A stretch of DNA of 64,000 nucleotides, taken from Peribacillus kribbensis DSM 17871 (lineage in GTDB: Bacteria > Bacillota > Bacilli > Bacillales > DSM-1321). Within the stretch, counting starts at the first letter, position 1; the number at the start of each line of letters is the position of its first letter. The position numbers and the translations under genes were made by a program. The DNA lies in the NCBI RefSeq assembly GCF_000430765.1, contig NZ_KE387245.1, forward strand, positions 1 to 64,000, in the 5' to 3' direction. The notes beneath the pieces were generated by a model. It was given only the letters and a program-made list of their open reading frames with translations. It did not search any database and was not told where the DNA came from. Of this stretch, positions 5,094-18,828 are shown in pieces.

Positions 5094-8049
5094 ATTCTTC
5101 TCCTCCACTTCCAAACAATTCTTGGATGGCAGTGAAATCTGGGCGCTGCCACTTGTCTTCTACTCTTACACTAATCTGTGGAACACGGTTTCCAAATCGG
5201 TGATTATGCTTCGGAAGCGGTGGTTCTCCATCGGTTTCGAGTACTTCCATTTTGACACTCATTTCCTTATAGGCAGGAGTATGTGTGACGGCATCATGGT
5301 AGCTGCTGGTAAGGTAGTTGACACCGCCGTCATCCTCCCTTGAGTTCATGGACAGATAAATTTCCTTTCCTTTTACCCTGTCGGTAACAATCGTCCGCAC
5401 TTTAACCATGCCGTATGGAGAAGTCAGACGAACAAGCGACCCATCCTTAAGATTTCTTTCCTCGGCAAGCTCAAGGGAGACCTCCAACCAATGCTTAGGA
5501 ACCTTATGCGTAAGTCCTTCTGACTTGTATGTCATATTGCCTTCATGAAAATGCTCCAGCAATCTTCCATTATTTAAATGCAGATCATATTCCTCGCTCG
5601 GTACATATGGCGGTGTCCAGTCAACCGGGAACAGTCTCGCCTTACCCTCTGGCAGGGCAAATTTATCCATATAAAGAAGTGGTGTATCAGTTCCGTCTTT
5701 ATGAACAGGCCATACCAGACTGTTAAAGCCTTCCAGACGTTCATAGCTGACGCCTGCGAATAAAACTGCCAGGCTTGCTGCTTCATCCATAATTTCTCCT
5801 GGGTGCTTATAATCCCATTCTGCTCCCATCCGATTGGCAAGATCCACGAATATTTCCCAATCCGGCTTTGAATCACCCAGCGGATCGAACACTTTATAAA
5901 AGCGCTGAATTCTTCTTTCTGTGTTTACAAAAGTTCCATCCTTTTCAAGGCTTGGAGAAGCTGGAAGGACTACATCTGCAAATTGCGCGGTTTTAGAGAA
6001 AAAGATATCCTGGACCACGAAGAAATCCAAATCATCAAACGCATGCTGGACATAATTTGAATTGGCATCCACCAAGGCCATTTCCTCACCGAACAGGTAC
6101 AAAGCCTTCAGTTTTCCCTTTTCGATTGCCTCTACCATATGGTGATTATCCATTCCAGGATCTGTGGGAAGAGATACTCCCCAAGCTTTTTCGTATCTTT
6201 CACGGACTTCCAAGTTTGCAACCGGTTCGTATCCCGGGAAGAAGGATGGCATGGTTCCGAAATCACAGGCTCCCTGTACATTATTATGTCCCCTGAGAGG
6301 ATAGGCGCCTGTACCAGGGCGGCCGTAATTTCCAGTAATGAGCAGCAGATTGGATATCGCCGTACTTGAATCGGTTGCCCCTTTATGCTGAGTGATTCCC
6401 ATAGCCCAGAGGATACATACCGAATTTGCCTCATGAATCATGGTCGCAGTCTTGATTAAGTCTTCCTGGGAAATCCCGGTCATCTCTTCGGCATAGCTTA
6501 ATGTGAACTTATCCAAAGTTTTAATATAATCGTCGACTCCAGCCACTCTCTTATCGAGGAACTCCTGGTCGTGCCAGCCCTGGTCTATGATATATTTCGT
6601 GACCGCTGAGATCCAGATCAAGTCTGTGCTCGGTACTGGATGAAGGCGGAAATCTGCGCGCTGTGCCAGCTCGTGCTCACGGATATCGGCAACAATCAGT
6701 TTTTGTCCATGAAGCTTATGTGCCCTTTTAACCCGTGTAGCAAGGACAGGATGCGATTCGGCAGGGTTTGCGCCGATGACAAACACCAGGTCTGATATCT
6801 GGATATCCGCCATCGTTCCAGAGTCTCCCCCGAGCCCCACAGTCCTAAGCAGTCCGGCTGTGGCGGGTGATTGGCAGTAACGGGAACAGTTATCCACGTT
6901 ATTTGTGCCGATTACAGCGCGGGCGAATTTTTGGGCGAGATAATTCTCTTCATTCGAGCATTTAGAGGAGGCAATCACGCCGATTGAATCTGCACCATGC
7001 TCTTCTTTTATGGAAGTCAGCTTGGTTGCAATCAGGTTCAATGCCTCATCCCAGGTCGCTTCTTCAAACACGCCGTTTCTCCTGATCAATGGTTTGGTCA
7101 GGCGCTCTTCACTGTTCACATAGTCCCAGCCCCATTTCCCCTTCACGCAGGTAGAGACACCGTTGACAGGTGCATCAGCTGTAGGCTGGATTTTTAATAT
7201 CTGCCTGTCCTTAGTCCAGACCTCGAAGCTGCAGCCCACGCCGCAATAGGTGCATACTGTTTTCGTGCGTTCGATCCTTGCCGTTCTCATGGCAGCCTCT
7301 ACTTCTGAAATCGCGAAGATTTCTTTATAGCCTGGCTCCACTTCTTTAATGAGGTCAATCATCGGCTCTAATATTGGAGCGGGAAGCTTGGTCAGGAATC
7401 CAGCTTCCCCAAGCATTGATTTTTCCATCAAGGCGTTACATGGACAAACATTAACACAGTGTCCGCAGGAAACACAGGAAGATTCATCGATCGGGACATC
7501 GTTATCCCAGATGACCCTCGGCCTCTCCCTGCTCCAGTCGATTGTCAAAGTTTCATTCACCTGAAGATCCTGGCAGGCTTCCACACAGCGGCCGCACAGA
7601 ATACATTGATCAGGTTCATACCGGTAGAATGGATGGGAATGATCAGGAGGATAAGGCTTTGCCCTGAATTGATATTTCTGATGTTCAATCTCCAAATACT
7701 CTGCGGTATTATGTACGGTACAGTTCCCATTGTTGTTATCACAAACCGTACAGTAGAGCTCATGATTTTCAAGAATTCTGGACATAGCCTCGTATTGTGC
7801 ATCCTTAACAGTCCCTGACAGGGTGTCGACTTCCATTCCTGGAGCAGCCTTTGTCGCACAGGCCCGGACTAATTCCCCGTTGCTTTGCACAAAACAGGTA
7901 TCACAGGTTTGGATGGTTCCAAGATTAGGATGGTAACAGACACTTGGAATGTACAAATCATGGGACAGTGCAACCTGCAAGATGGTCTGGCCCGGCAGTG
8001 CTGTTAATTCTTTTTCATTGATTTTTATTGAAAAAGAAGATTCTGACAT
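5068..8049 (-). CDS. fdhA: Formate dehydrogenase alpha subunit, molybdopterin enzyme (cysteine form)
   Basis: The 993-residue protein oxidises formate using a bis-molybdopterin guanine dinucleotide cofactor. An N-terminal 2Fe-2S domain has cysteines at 38, 49, 52 and 64. A His-Cys cluster region follows (CTVCDNNNGNC, 100-110), then two 4Fe-4S motifs (CILCGRCVEAC near 149-159; CVSCGHCVNVC near 192-202) and the 4Fe-4S motif of the catalytic domain (CTYCGVGC, 266-273). Cys392 in RYCQSP takes the place of the selenocysteine of E. coli FdhF, so this enzyme does not need selenium. It closely resembles B. subtilis YrhE/YjgC. No signal peptide is seen, so it is cytoplasmic. It is the first gene of a cluster with the DUF1641 and HMA-like genes. 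Confidence 0.95.
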   Translation of the reverse strand: MSESSFSIKINEKELTALPGQTILQVALSHDLYIPSVCYHPNLGTIQTCDTCFVQSNGELVRACATKAAPGMEVDTLSGTVKDAQYEAMSRILENHELYCTVCDNNNGNCTVHNTAEYLEIEHQKYQFRAKPYPPDHSHPFYRYEPDQCILCGRCVEACQDLQVNETLTIDWSRERPRVIWDNDVPIDESSCVSCGHCVNVCPCNALMEKSMLGEAGFLTKLPAPILEPMIDLIKEVEPGYKEIFAISEVEAAMRTARIERTKTVCTYCGVGCSFEVWTKDRQILKIQPTADAPVNGVSTCVKGKWGWDYVNSEERLTKPLIRRNGVFEEATWDEALNLIATKLTSIKEEHGADSIGVIASSKCSNEENYLAQKFARAVIGTNNVDNCSRYCQSPATAGLLRTVGLGGDSGTMADIQISDLVFVIGANPAESHPVLATRVKRAHKLHGQKLIVADIREHELAQRADFRLHPVPSTDLIWISAVTKYIIDQGWHDQEFLDKRVAGVDDYIKTLDKFTLSYAEEMTGISQEDLIKTATMIHEANSVCILWAMGITQHKGATDSSTAISNLLLITGNYGRPGTGAYPLRGHNNVQGACDFGTMPSFFPGYEPVANLEVRERYEKAWGVSLPTDPGMDNHHMVEAIEKGKLKALYLFGEEMALVDANSNYVQHAFDDLDFFVVQDIFFSKTAQFADVVLPASPSLEKDGTFVNTERRIQRFYKVFDPLGDSKPDWEIFVDLANRMGAEWDYKHPGEIMDEAASLAVLFAGVSYERLEGFNSLVWPVHKDGTDTPLLYMDKFALPEGKARLFPVDWTPPYVPSEEYDLHLNNGRLLEHFHEGNMTYKSEGLTHKVPKHWLEVSLELAEERNLKDGSLVRLTSPYGMVKVRTIVTDRVKGKEIYLSMNSREDDGGVNYLTSSYHDAVTHTPAYKEMSVKMEVLETDGEPPLPKHNHRFGNRVPQISVRVEDKWQRPDFTAIQELFGSGGEEYGQSNPAN

Positions 8050-14945: not shown

Positions 14946-16340
14946 TCAGATGAAGGATTTCAAGGTTTGAACGGCCTGCTCGATATCCTGCTGGTCCATG
15001 GTTCTCACATCCATCAGCAGCTTATCCTGTTTTATCCTGGCAATAATAGGAGGATCGCTCAGCCTTAACTTTAAATGGAGTTCATCGGCAGAATGCGATG
15101 GGTGTCTTATCGCAGCTGCAAATGTCTCGATTTCAACTCCCGGCATTGTCCCTCCTCCAATAGCACTGGCTTCCTTGAGGATCACACAGCTATACCCGGC
15201 TTCTTGTAAACGGCTTGTCAGATTATCTGCTCTTTTCCTTAATTCTTCCCCTTCTGTCAATAAATCCGTCAGCAGAGGATTTTTTTTATCTGCGTTTCCC
15301 TTTAAGTAATCCACCAGGGTCGCTTCCAATGCGGCAAGAGTCATTTTATCCAGTCTCAATACCCGCGCCAGCTGATGCTTTTTTAACTGATCAATATACA
15401 TTTTTTTGCCTGCAATGATTCCTGCCTGCGGTCCTCCCAGAAGCTTATCTCCGCTGAAGGAAACCAGATCGGCTCCATCTTCCAGCACTTTTGTGACAAG
15501 AGGCTCATCCCCTATTCCCTGCTGTTCAAGATCAAAAAGGACTCCGCTTCCCAGATCTTCGTAGAAAATGATCTCTTTCTTTCTGGCAAGACCAGCCAGC
15601 TCTTTGGTGGACACAGACTCTGTGAATCCGATGATTTTAAAATTTGATGTATGTACCTTCATGATGAGAGCTGTTTGTTCGGAAACAGCATGTTCATAAT
15701 CGGACAGCCGGGTCTTATTTGTAGTCCCAACCTCGACAAGGTCCGCCCCGCTTTCCTCCATAATCGAAGATACCCGGAAGGACCCTCCTATTTCAACAAG
15801 CTGGCCCCTTGAGACAATAACCTCTTGTTCCCTCCCGAGTGCTCTCAGGATCAAAAATACGGCTGCAGCATTATTATTGACAGCCATCGCGGCCTCTGCC
15901 CCTGTAAGGTCACAGATCCACTTTTCAATATGTTCATGGCGCGAACCTCTCTTTCCGGTTTCCAGATTATACTCCAGATTCGAATAAGAGCCGGCGATTC
16001 TGATCATGTGGTCCAATGCAGCAGAGCTTAATCTGGCCCTTCCCAAATTGGTGTGCAGAAGGGTTCCTGTTGCATTTATCACACGTTTTAAACGGTAGTC
16101 ATATTGTTTTGTTATCCTTTGTTCTGTTCTCCTGAAAATTTCCTGAATAAAAGCCGGTGATTCAGGTGCATGCCCGGTCCAGCTTCCGCTTATAAGCTGT
16201 CCTCGGATTTCCTGCAGTACTTCTTTTATGTATGCTGTGAGAGTTGCGGTACTTAGTCCACTCTCACTCATCAGTCTTGTAAATTTCCCATGCTTCTGCA
16301 GTTCATGCACAGGCGGGATGGATCGTACGTGCGAATTCAC
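14946..16340 (-). CDS. selA: L-seryl-tRNA(Sec) selenium transferase SelA
   Basis: SelA converts seryl-tRNA(Sec) to selenocysteinyl-tRNA(Sec) with selenophosphate and pyridoxal phosphate. Family blocks present are RAIPPVHEL-like RSIPPVHEL, INATGTLLHTNLGRARL, NNNAAAVFLIL, and FSGDKLLGGPQAG, where the Lys (residue 299) holds PLP. A GTG at 16340 with GGAGG six bases upstream is preferred over the ATG at 16358, which lies on top of that ribosome site; this gives 464 residues. No selB or tRNA(Sec) gene follows, unlike the usual selAB arrangement. The nearby selD and SelW-like gene confirm selenium use. Confidence 0.94.
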   Translation of the reverse strand: MNSHVRSIPPVHELQKHGKFTRLMSESGLSTATLTAYIKEVLQEIRGQLISGSWTGHAPESPAFIQEIFRRTEQRITKQYDYRLKRVINATGTLLHTNLGRARLSSAALDHMIRIAGSYSNLEYNLETGKRGSRHEHIEKWICDLTGAEAAMAVNNNAAAVFLILRALGREQEVIVSRGQLVEIGGSFRVSSIMEESGADLVEVGTTNKTRLSDYEHAVSEQTALIMKVHTSNFKIIGFTESVSTKELAGLARKKEIIFYEDLGSGVLFDLEQQGIGDEPLVTKVLEDGADLVSFSGDKLLGGPQAGIIAGKKMYIDQLKKHQLARVLRLDKMTLAALEATLVDYLKGNADKKNPLLTDLLTEGEELRKRADNLTSRLQEAGYSCVILKEASAIGGGTMPGVEIETFAAAIRHPSHSADELHLKLRLSDPPIIARIKQDKLLMDVRTMDQQDIEQAVQTLKSFI

Positions 16341-16432
16341 GAGATGCCTCCGTTTCATAAAATTTTATTCATTATAGCATAGATGCTTTAAATGGAATAA
16401 CGTGTATAAATTCATGAAAAAGGAGTGATCGT

Positions 16433-16744
16433 ATGAAAGTTGACCGTTCCTTTGAATCCTGGCTTGAAATGAGAACTTTCGATCCCTTTACGAATTACCT
16501 GGATTTCTCGGCTTTCCGCATAGATCTTTACAAGACCACAGATGGATATTTAGTGGAAGCGGTACTGGAAGAAGCGGATATCAAAGAATATAAGCTGACG
16601 GTAAAAGATGCGGAACTTTCTATTCAGTTTCTTAGGGAGGATGAAATTCTCGAACGAAAAGTATACTTCCCTGAATCGATCTTATTCAAACCTATTCAGG
16701 CATCTTTAAAAAATAGTATTATTGAAGTGAGGATATTCACTTAG
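16433..16744 (+). CDS. Hsp20/alpha-crystallin-like protein
   Basis: The 103-residue protein has the beta-sandwich pattern of small heat-shock proteins: FRIDLYKTTDGYLVEAVLEEADIKEYKLTVKDAELSI resembles the family's start, with a weak C-terminal match (PIQASLKNSIIEVRI for A.l.nGvL.V.i). The N-terminal oligomerisation arm and the C-terminal IxI tail are short or missing. The similarity is modest. It may form an operon with the VOC gene 18 bp downstream. Confidence 0.65.
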   Translation: MKVDRSFESWLEMRTFDPFTNYLDFSAFRIDLYKTTDGYLVEAVLEEADIKEYKLTVKDAELSIQFLREDEILERKVYFPESILFKPIQASLKNSIIEVRIFT

Positions 16745-17253: not shown

Positions 17254-17496
17254 TCAGCTCTTTAGTTCTTCTAACACGCTGATCATTTCATCAGAGCTTG
17301 GAAAGCGGCCTGTTTCTTTTTTGGAATAAAGAAGCTGTCCGTTGACCGTGACTTCAAAGATTCCTCCTGAACTTGGCACTAACTCTAACTTTGTAATATT
17401 ACCCCTGAAATGGCTAAAAAGGTCTTCTGCGAGACTCGCAGCTTTTGGTGAGTAATTTCACATCATGCAGAATTCTACTTTTACCTCAAATGCCAT
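17254..17496 (-). CDS. SelW-like (Rdx family) selenoprotein with in-frame UGA
   Basis: Reading TGA at 17458-17460 as selenocysteine gives an 80-residue protein that begins MAFEVKVEFCMMU and continues NYSPKAASLAEDLFSHFRGN. The CxxU redox motif at residues 10-13 sits at the end of the first strand, exactly as CxxC/CxxU in SelT/SelW/SelH (Rdx) proteins. The later GGIFEVTVNGQLLYSKKETGRFPS matches the G.FEV..NG..iySK...GrFP block of the family. The ribosome site GGGGGTG precedes the ATG. Without recoding only a 12-residue peptide would be made. A hairpin lies 16 bases after the UGA. The neighbours selA and selD support selenocysteine use. The role is probably thiol/selenol redox, by family. Confidence 0.9.
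17427..17441 (-). promoter_or_regulatory. Candidate SECIS hairpin of the SelW-like gene
   Basis: On the minus strand CTGCG-AGTCT-CGCAG forms a 5-bp stem with a 5-base loop containing G and U. It starts 17 bases after the UGA, within the usual distance for bacterial SECIS elements recognised by SelB. It is part of the coding sequence (Ala-Ala-Ser-Leu-Ala). Confidence 0.7.
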
Positions 17497-17772
17497 CTGC
17501 TTGCACCCCCGTTTTTACTTCTGTATTTCACTATCATACCCAATTTCACGATAAGTTGACAATTAAAAAACAAGGCAGCACGATCGGTACGGTTTGCAGC
17601 TAGAATTTTTAAAAAGAAAGAAATAGATAACCAGGCGATTATAAAAATATGGCCTTCATTCTAAGTATGGAGGCCTATAATTTGAGATAGAAAGAAGACA
17701 TGCTATTTTTTTGGTATTTGTCTTCGTACATAGTATAATCTATAAGAAATGTTTGAATTGGAGGTGCAATGG

Positions 17773-18828
17773 ATGTCAGAGCATGAAAAAATCAGGCTTA
17801 CAGCCCTTTCTACAAAAGCTGGCTGAGGCTGCAAAATTGGTCCAGAGGACCTGGCGCAAGTTTTGCGCCGTTTACCAAAGCAGGAACGTATTCCGGAAGT
17901 GCTTGTCGGCCATGAGACATCAGATGATGCCGGCGTTTACAAGATAACAGATGAAATTGCGCTGATCCAGACGGTGGATTATTTTACACCGATCGTGGAT
18001 GACCCATACATGTTTGGCCAGATTGCCGCTGCCAATTCATTGAGTGATGTATACGCAATGGGCGGTGTGCCGAAGACGGTCATGAATATCGTCGGCTACC
18101 CGATCAAAAAGCTTGGCGGTGATATGCTGTCAGATATATTGCGCGGAGCTGCCGATAAAGTGAAAGAAGCGGGAGCTACCACGATTGGCGGGCATTCCAT
18201 TGATGACCAGGAGCCGAAATTCGGGCTTTCTGTGACAGGATTTGTCCATCCCGAAAAATTCTGGAAGAACGTTGGGGCGAAGGCTGGTGATGTTCTTGTA
18301 CTCACCAAGCCTATCGGTGTCGGGATCATGACCACTGGTATTAAGAGAAATGCCGTATCCCGGGAACAGGAAAAGACAGTCACAGAAATCATGGCTGAGC
18401 TGAATAAAACGGCTGCTGAACTCCTCATGAATTATGAGCCCCATGCAGTTACAGATGTAACAGGATTCGGGCTGATGGGACATGCCAGTGAAATTGCGAG
18501 AGGCAGCGGAGTCAGCTTTGAAATCAGCCTTAGCCAGGTGCCCGTGCTGCAAGGTACAGAAGAGCTTGCAGAGGCAGGGGTTGTTCCTGGAGGATCAAAA
18601 TCCAATCACAGCTGGCTTCAGAATGATGTCGAATACGGAAATGAACTTTCCGGCACGGATCAGCTGATCCTTTGTGATGCTGTCACTTCAGGAGGCCTTC
18701 TTATCAGTATGAGTGAAGATGAAGCTGTCAGGTATGTGGATGACATGCAAGAGGCAGGCAATTCTTTTGCCGCCATCATCGGAAAAGTCGTGGAACAGAA
18801 AGAAAAACTGATCTACGCTCGCAAATAA
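17773..18828 (+). CDS. selD: Selenide, water dikinase SelD, itself a selenoprotein
   Basis: SelD makes selenophosphate from selenide and ATP. The gene begins at ATG 17773 (GGAGG upstream) and has an in-frame TGA at 17824-17826. The context Lys-Ala-Gly-Sec-Gly-Cys-Lys-Ile-Gly-Pro matches the catalytic Gly-Cys-Gly-Cys-Lys motif of E. coli SelD, so residue 18 is selenocysteine. The rest is a normal SelD: DDAGVYKI, QTVDYFTPIVDDPYMFG, AANSLSDVYAMGG, GGHSIDDQEPKFGLSVTG and DVTGFGLMGH. Total length is 351 residues. A frame starting at a later TTG (17863) would miss the active site. It ends at a strong terminator. Confidence 0.95.
17839..17869 (+). promoter_or_regulatory. Candidate SECIS hairpins of selD
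   Basis: Two stems follow the UGA. GGTCC-AGA-GGACC (17839-17851) begins 13 bases after it. GGCGCAA-GTT-TTGCGCC (17853-17869) is a perfect 7-bp stem directly after. Either alone or stacked they could be the SelB-binding element. Which one is used cannot be decided from sequence. Confidence 0.6.

Follow-up and report, generated by a model that had tools for sequence, protein, structure and literature searches.

Bacterial SelW-like selenoproteins

Bacterial selenoproteins of the SelW-like type, together with the gaps that they leave in genome annotation, are already in print. Those described by Zhang et al. (2005, 2006; PMC1088965 and PMC1794560, in the accessible parts of both papers) share with the gene considered here a CXXU motif, a SECIS element with a G in its apical loop and very few or no cysteine homologues among the organisms that use selenocysteine (Sec). 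In its family table the accessible text of PMC1794560 puts the SelW-like count at 10, and that of PMC5029168 has the family in 35 organisms and FdhA in 822; in both, formate dehydrogenase and SelD are the most widespread bacterial selenoproteins. The function of the SelW-like protein is termed unclear in the literature, as far as the accessible portions go. A further set, that of the Epsilonproteobacteria (Cravedi et al., 2015; PMC4607533, accessible part), belongs to another bacterial group, yet shares with ours both the omission of the SelW genes from genome annotations and a SECIS predicted past the UGA. As for solved structures, mouse SelW (2npb) and the bacterial proteins 2fa8, 2obk, 2p0g and 3dex have the same fold, and belong to the same family, as the product of the present gene, from which 2fa8 and 3dex differ by a cysteine at the Sec column of the sequence alignments.

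Among open-licence papers, taken without their supplements, we found none on SelW-like proteins in Bacillaceae and no description of three traits reported below, namely breadth across a whole order, the divergent pairing of selW with selD and a gene of small heat-shock type that separates selW from selA. The selW gene of the present article has a wider distribution, and sits in a tidier locus, than we have found described: against the published counts of 10 and of 35 organisms, it turns up in 165 of the 397 genomes sampled from a single order, tied to a selD/selA/selB locus. Our starting point was a window of 64,000 nucleotides from Peribacillus kribbensis DSM 17871 (contig NZ_KE387245.1, positions 1 to 64,000), in which a first-pass annotation, made from the letters of the sequence, had proposed a hidden SelW-like gene. 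We hold, with a probability of about 0.96, that positions 17254-17496 of the minus strand are a genuine selW-like selenoprotein gene, where Sec would be inserted by SelB and where the product is likely to be a thiol/selenol oxidoreductase. Such a gene is easily overlooked because the selenocysteine codon looks like a stop, and this one is common in the selenium-using relatives of Bacillus.

A SelW-like frame read through UGA

When the TGA at 17458..17460 is read as Sec, the minus strand from 17257 to 17496 translates into 80 residues (MAFEVKVEFCMMUNYSPKAASLAEDLF...LEELKS), with CMMU at residues 10-13, Sec at residue 13 (U13) and a terminal TGA at 17254-17256, exactly the frame that had been proposed. 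It is preceded by a likely ribosome-binding site, read by eye as a purine-rich GGGGGTG (17504..17510, minus strand) that ends 7 nt 5′ of the ATG, and GGAGG-like sites are also visible by eye upstream of many of the orthologues printed. Further upstream lies a promoter-like TTGTCA-18-TATGAT (17533..17562, minus strand), a match to the consensus only, sites of this kind being found 6 times in the stretch against 1.7 expected. A six-frame scan of the 2,591 TGA codons of the window left 4 with a cysteine at -3, a start in the open stretch upstream and a downstream frame open for 40 codons or more, among which profile comparison covered the selW frame.

The conceptual protein passes the Pfam Rdx profile PF10262 with 82.6 bits (cut-off 22.6; 2.3e-23) and TIGR02174 with 71.1 bits (cut-off 34.2; 7.2e-20), a resemblance far beyond chance. 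It falls 1.4 bits short of the Campylobacter-named equivalog NF041051 (SelTWH_Campy), scoring 86.6 against a cut-off of 88 bits, a further difference from the Epsilonproteobacterial proteins. A search of PDB sequences retrieves SelW-related chains, and so does a fold search with the AF2 model (pLDDT 88.7), where SelW-related proteins lead the 22 PDB chains found at E <= 0.001; the model superposes on the crystal structures 2fa8 and 2p0g with TM 0.92 and 0.93, and on mouse SelW (2npb) with TM 0.68. In the predicted structure CMMU sits at the end of the strand formed by residues 3-10, which is the expected place of a CxxU after the first strand. The product is thus modelled as a thioredoxin-like protein of the SelW fold, and the SelW/Rdx pattern initially noticed in the letters is borne out by profiles, sequence and fold matches alike.

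That ordinary gene calling would miss this gene had also been put forward. In the annotated record of Cytobacillus spongiae, selD, Hsp20 and selA are called while no selW feature is listed (in a table described as incomplete), yet the DNA at the unlisted site contains the selW frame with its TGA and hairpin. Support for the claim thus comes from one annotated relative, together with the omissions reported in the accessible text of PMC4607533.

Selenocysteine machinery and its co-occurrence with selW

The source genome (5.05 Mb in 38 contigs) has the complete bacterial Sec set, selA, selD, selB and tRNA-Sec, all on contig C13, which is that of the window. SelB and tRNA-Sec, the lack of which the first-pass annotation had listed among its possible refutations, are both present outside the window: one full SelB scores 342 bits against a cut-off of 242, and one tRNA-Sec, at C13:79132-79224, scores 60.1 bits against an Rfam cut-off of 47 that is not a strict one, being passed by 5 of 14 control genomes, against 2 of 14 for SelB. 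Within the window, ARAGORN predicts no tRNA.

Across the order sample (397 genomes, 136 genera), SelB passes its cut-off in 179 genomes, and the presence of selW tracks it closely: 164 genomes have both, 1 has SelW only, 15 have SelB only and 217 have neither, so that selW is found in 164/179 genomes with SelB against 1/218 of the others. The single exception, G239, is an assembly of about 480 contigs. As the 15 genomes with SelB only display no Rdx match at E <= 0.001, selW must be dispensable. In the family sample (43 genomes) the 11 genomes with selW all belong to the 14 in which SelB passes, and tRNA-Sec is over cut-off in 15, namely these 14 and G023, where SelB is not.

A small selenoprotein absent from the gene table of at least one annotated relative is encoded in most of the sampled genomes of the order that have SelB. 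Those relatives of Bacillus in which few selenoproteins are known may provide simple models in which the removal of selW or selB could be read almost directly.

Conservation of the UGA and of what follows it

In the family sample, the 11 genomes with selW yield 11 matches, each with one inner TGA (one also has a TAA near its end). In the order sample the gene spans 62 of the 136 genera, and an in-frame TGA is present in all of the 150 matches listed of 165, some having a TAA too. A class sample of 398 genomes, partly overlapping the latter, has 60 matches in 56 genomes, with an inner TGA in 57 (two of these matches having two) and none in 3. In the 80 loci that we named, the best 80 of 501, the TGA is at residue 13 in every case, the closest among these 80 being from Peribacillus deserti (78-79% identity). 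The whole read-through protein is 46-77% identical to 21 relatives with which it was compared, the Cys and Sec positions being invariant, and the codons 3′ of the UGA give dN/dS values of 0.10-0.18 in five comparisons, while in a sixth dS is saturated. These codons are under purifying selection, and the comparison indicates that the UGA is decoded and is not a stop.

It had been proposed that CxxC homologues be sought in related Bacillaceae. None was found among the 150 order matches listed of 165; three further genomes were viewed via the neighbourhood of selD, two with TGA (G110 and G115) and one, G059, without selW within 9 kb, so that all but 13 of the 165 have been seen. Two verified homologues outside the order do have a cysteine at the Sec site, encoded by TGC in G687 and, in G424, by TGT in the second of its two copies. 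The expected cysteine forms thus exist, at a distance, and are absent from the order matches seen. The G424 genome, of the class sample, combines a TGA copy and the cysteine copy of SelW (G424:C1:1322424-1322654), and should be useful for comparing the two forms. The last of the three class matches without an inner TGA, in G540, was not recovered by tblastn in the stretch examined, and we do not count it as a cysteine form.

A hairpin of the bacterial SECIS type

Mouse SelW requires a eukaryotic SECIS. The candidate element of the present gene is a hairpin of the bacterial type (17427..17441, minus strand), with a stem of 6 bp that starts 16 nt past the UGA and a loop of 3 nt, GUC. Since Rfam, at its gathering thresholds, gave no match over the whole window, the case for a SECIS rests on comparative pairing, for which we aligned 60 of the 62 orthologues examined (the other two also fit), corresponding to 55 distinct sequences. 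Standard pairs fill 98.2% of the hairpin cells, against 83.5% in shuffled alignments; covariation scores 0.49, compared with 0.20 after shuffling, and none of 500 shuffles reaches either value. Double changes are seen in five of the six pairs, which 5 of 500 shuffles equal, and sliding the partner of the stem lowers pairing to 24-55%. The loop starts with GU in 54/55 sequences, while the pair next to it is broken in 6/55.

Two of the pairs join third codon positions: one is CG in 37 sequences and TA in 18, the other GC in 32, CG in 14 and AT in 9, and both are paired in 55/55, which none of 20,000 shuffles matches, although this cannot be taken as an exact probability as shuffles ignore relatedness. 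Among the 46 sequences that keep alanine at three Ala codons, the first of these wobble pairs (28 CG, 18 TA) swaps wholly by synonymous change. One of five covariation measures, the number of further pair types, is not above shuffles, which average 8.9 where the alignment has 8, and the folding energy of the window hairpin is unremarkable (z -1.24, with 22 of 200 shuffles folding as well). A SECIS-type hairpin downstream of the UGA, with a small loop containing a G, is therefore indicated by covariation, not by energy alone.

Mechanism and alternative readings

We propose that SelA and SelD would make Sec-tRNA(Sec), and that SelB would bind the hairpin and deliver Sec at residue 13, allowing translation to run on for 67 codons past the UGA. 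The product would stand alone as a thioredoxin-like (Rdx) protein whose redox motif is C-x-x-U, and would most likely serve in the cytosol as a thiol/selenol oxidoreductase, resolving oxidised protein thiols, or protein thiols bonded to a low-molecular-weight thiol. In this group of organisms bacillithiol is presumably the natural guess for the partner thiol.

That UGA normally terminates in most genes, and that the conceptual selW gene itself ends with a UGA, could suggest that the inner codon is a true stop, in a frame that has decayed or is open by chance; the identity of the read-through protein to its 21 relatives, purifying selection past the codon and matches in 62 genera, with the TGA in all 150 listed, run so strongly against this that we give it almost no credit. 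Rather than all stopping at this codon, as the first-pass annotation had considered they might, close relatives keep both the UGA and the protein beyond it, where the Rdx similarity, the lack of which it had also named as a refutation, is strong. As UGA readthrough can happen in the absence of Sec machinery, one could also imagine a near-cognate tRNA, for Trp or Cys, reading the codon, a very improbable view when SelB is present in 164 of the 165 genomes with selW, when wobble pairs covary in the hairpin and when homologues, solved CxxC relatives included, have cysteine in the same column.

The hairpin, in turn, could serve to terminate transcription or simply result from the choice of codons, and a scan does flag the palindrome as terminator-like on the other strand, pointing away from the direction of selW. 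On the strand of selW the same scan flags nothing terminator-like at that place, and pairs kept through double changes, third codon positions included, with a loop that nearly always starts with GU, make this reading of the hairpin negligible in comparison with a SECIS. We are less assured about the role of the protein. Mammalian SelW is reported, in the accessible text of PMC8508763, to work through 14-3-3, which it binds at the U of its CXXU, and the bacterial protein might likewise be a non-enzymatic regulator or bind a partner. The thioredoxin-like fold and the invariant Cys and Sec positions favour a redox role, without being decisive, and make a regulator unlikely, though worth keeping in mind. 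The oxidoreductase reading that we prefer infers both SelB-dependent insertion of Sec at U13 and a thiol/selenol reaction at the CxxU.

The selenium locus

As had been noted, the frame lies between selA (14946..16358, minus strand, identified by profile matches) and selD (17773..18828, plus strand). The latter has its own in-frame TGA (17824-17826, within KAGUGCKIG), after which 51 nt are predicted to fold into a hairpin of -19.2 kcal/mol (single fold), and a promoter-like TTGGTA-17-TATAAT (17711..17739, plus strand; consensus match only). A mechanical list of frames, blind to Sec, starts selD at 17863. The two selenoprotein genes would be transcribed divergently within a compact locus, an arrangement shared by 23 of the 27 genomes for which the coordinates of both genes were available, where they are neighbours at most 431 bp apart, and again in G110 and G115. 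Among the 80 best loci, which reach about 6 kb each way and are sometimes cut by contig ends, a SelD match is found in 62, always divergent from selW (62/62) and within 500 bp in 58, while the SelA of the window is matched in 76 and SelB in 35. In the control region between selW and selD, TATACT-like -10 motifs can be seen by eye on both sides in many of the sequences compared (the window and 58 loci).

Between selW and selA lies a gene for a 103-residue small heat-shock-protein-like product (16433..16744, plus strand). A relative is present in 38 of these 80 loci, in all 38 between selW and selA, on the opposite strand and adjoining selA; in three of them (L089, L090 and L165) over 500 bp separate it from selW, and in L167 its frame is shortened to 54 residues. 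The window copy has no Pfam match, and Hsp20 (PF00011) is passed by 7 of 8 relatives tested. In a fold search its AF2 model (pLDDT 82.3, with less confidence over residues 1-30) retrieves small heat-shock proteins of archaea (TM about 0.67, best E 3.9e-4), and as modelled the protein resembles an alpha-crystallin domain. The accessible main text of PMC5322559, a screen for new genes of selenium metabolism, does not mention Hsp20, SelW or Bacillales. A neighbouring glyoxalase gene was dropped as a member of the cluster, being present in 2 of the 80 loci, both from Peribacillus deserti. In Cytobacillus spongiae (NZ_CP089998.1 364650-376871) selA, selD and selW are carried by a 690 kb replicon termed a plasmid, near two reverse transcriptase/maturase genes.

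SelW, SelD and formate dehydrogenase in the order

The accessible text of PMC1794560 reports FdhA in 67 of 75 Sec users, and three selenoproteins for Bacillales. In 30 genomes picked for the presence of SelW, about one per genus, and compared for three families (SelW, SelD and FdhA), SelD with a TGA is present in 30/30 (in two pieces in G002), while a full-length FdhA with a TGA appears, among the matches listed, best first, in 5; shorter FdhA pieces with a TGA come from three of the same five. The rarity of TGA-containing FdhA beside selW and selD, set against the survey counts, suggests that the order differs from what has been published, subject to two caveats: these genomes were chosen for SelW, and SelD alone could keep the Sec trait, as the accessible text of PMC1794560 suggests for organisms without Sec-FdhA. 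It is tempting to go further, and to imagine that in the order Sec decoding usually serves, beside Sec-SelD, the SelW-like protein and not formate dehydrogenase, that selW and selD share their divergent control region, and that the small heat-shock-like protein is dedicated to the system, for example by acting as holdase on selenoproteins or on SelA; we offer this tentatively, as a possibility that we ourselves rather doubt. In the source genome three matches to the formate dehydrogenase alpha subunit are over the cut-off, none with an inner stop, and one such TGA-free gene is found in the window at 5251-7260 (minus strand), about 8 kb from selA.
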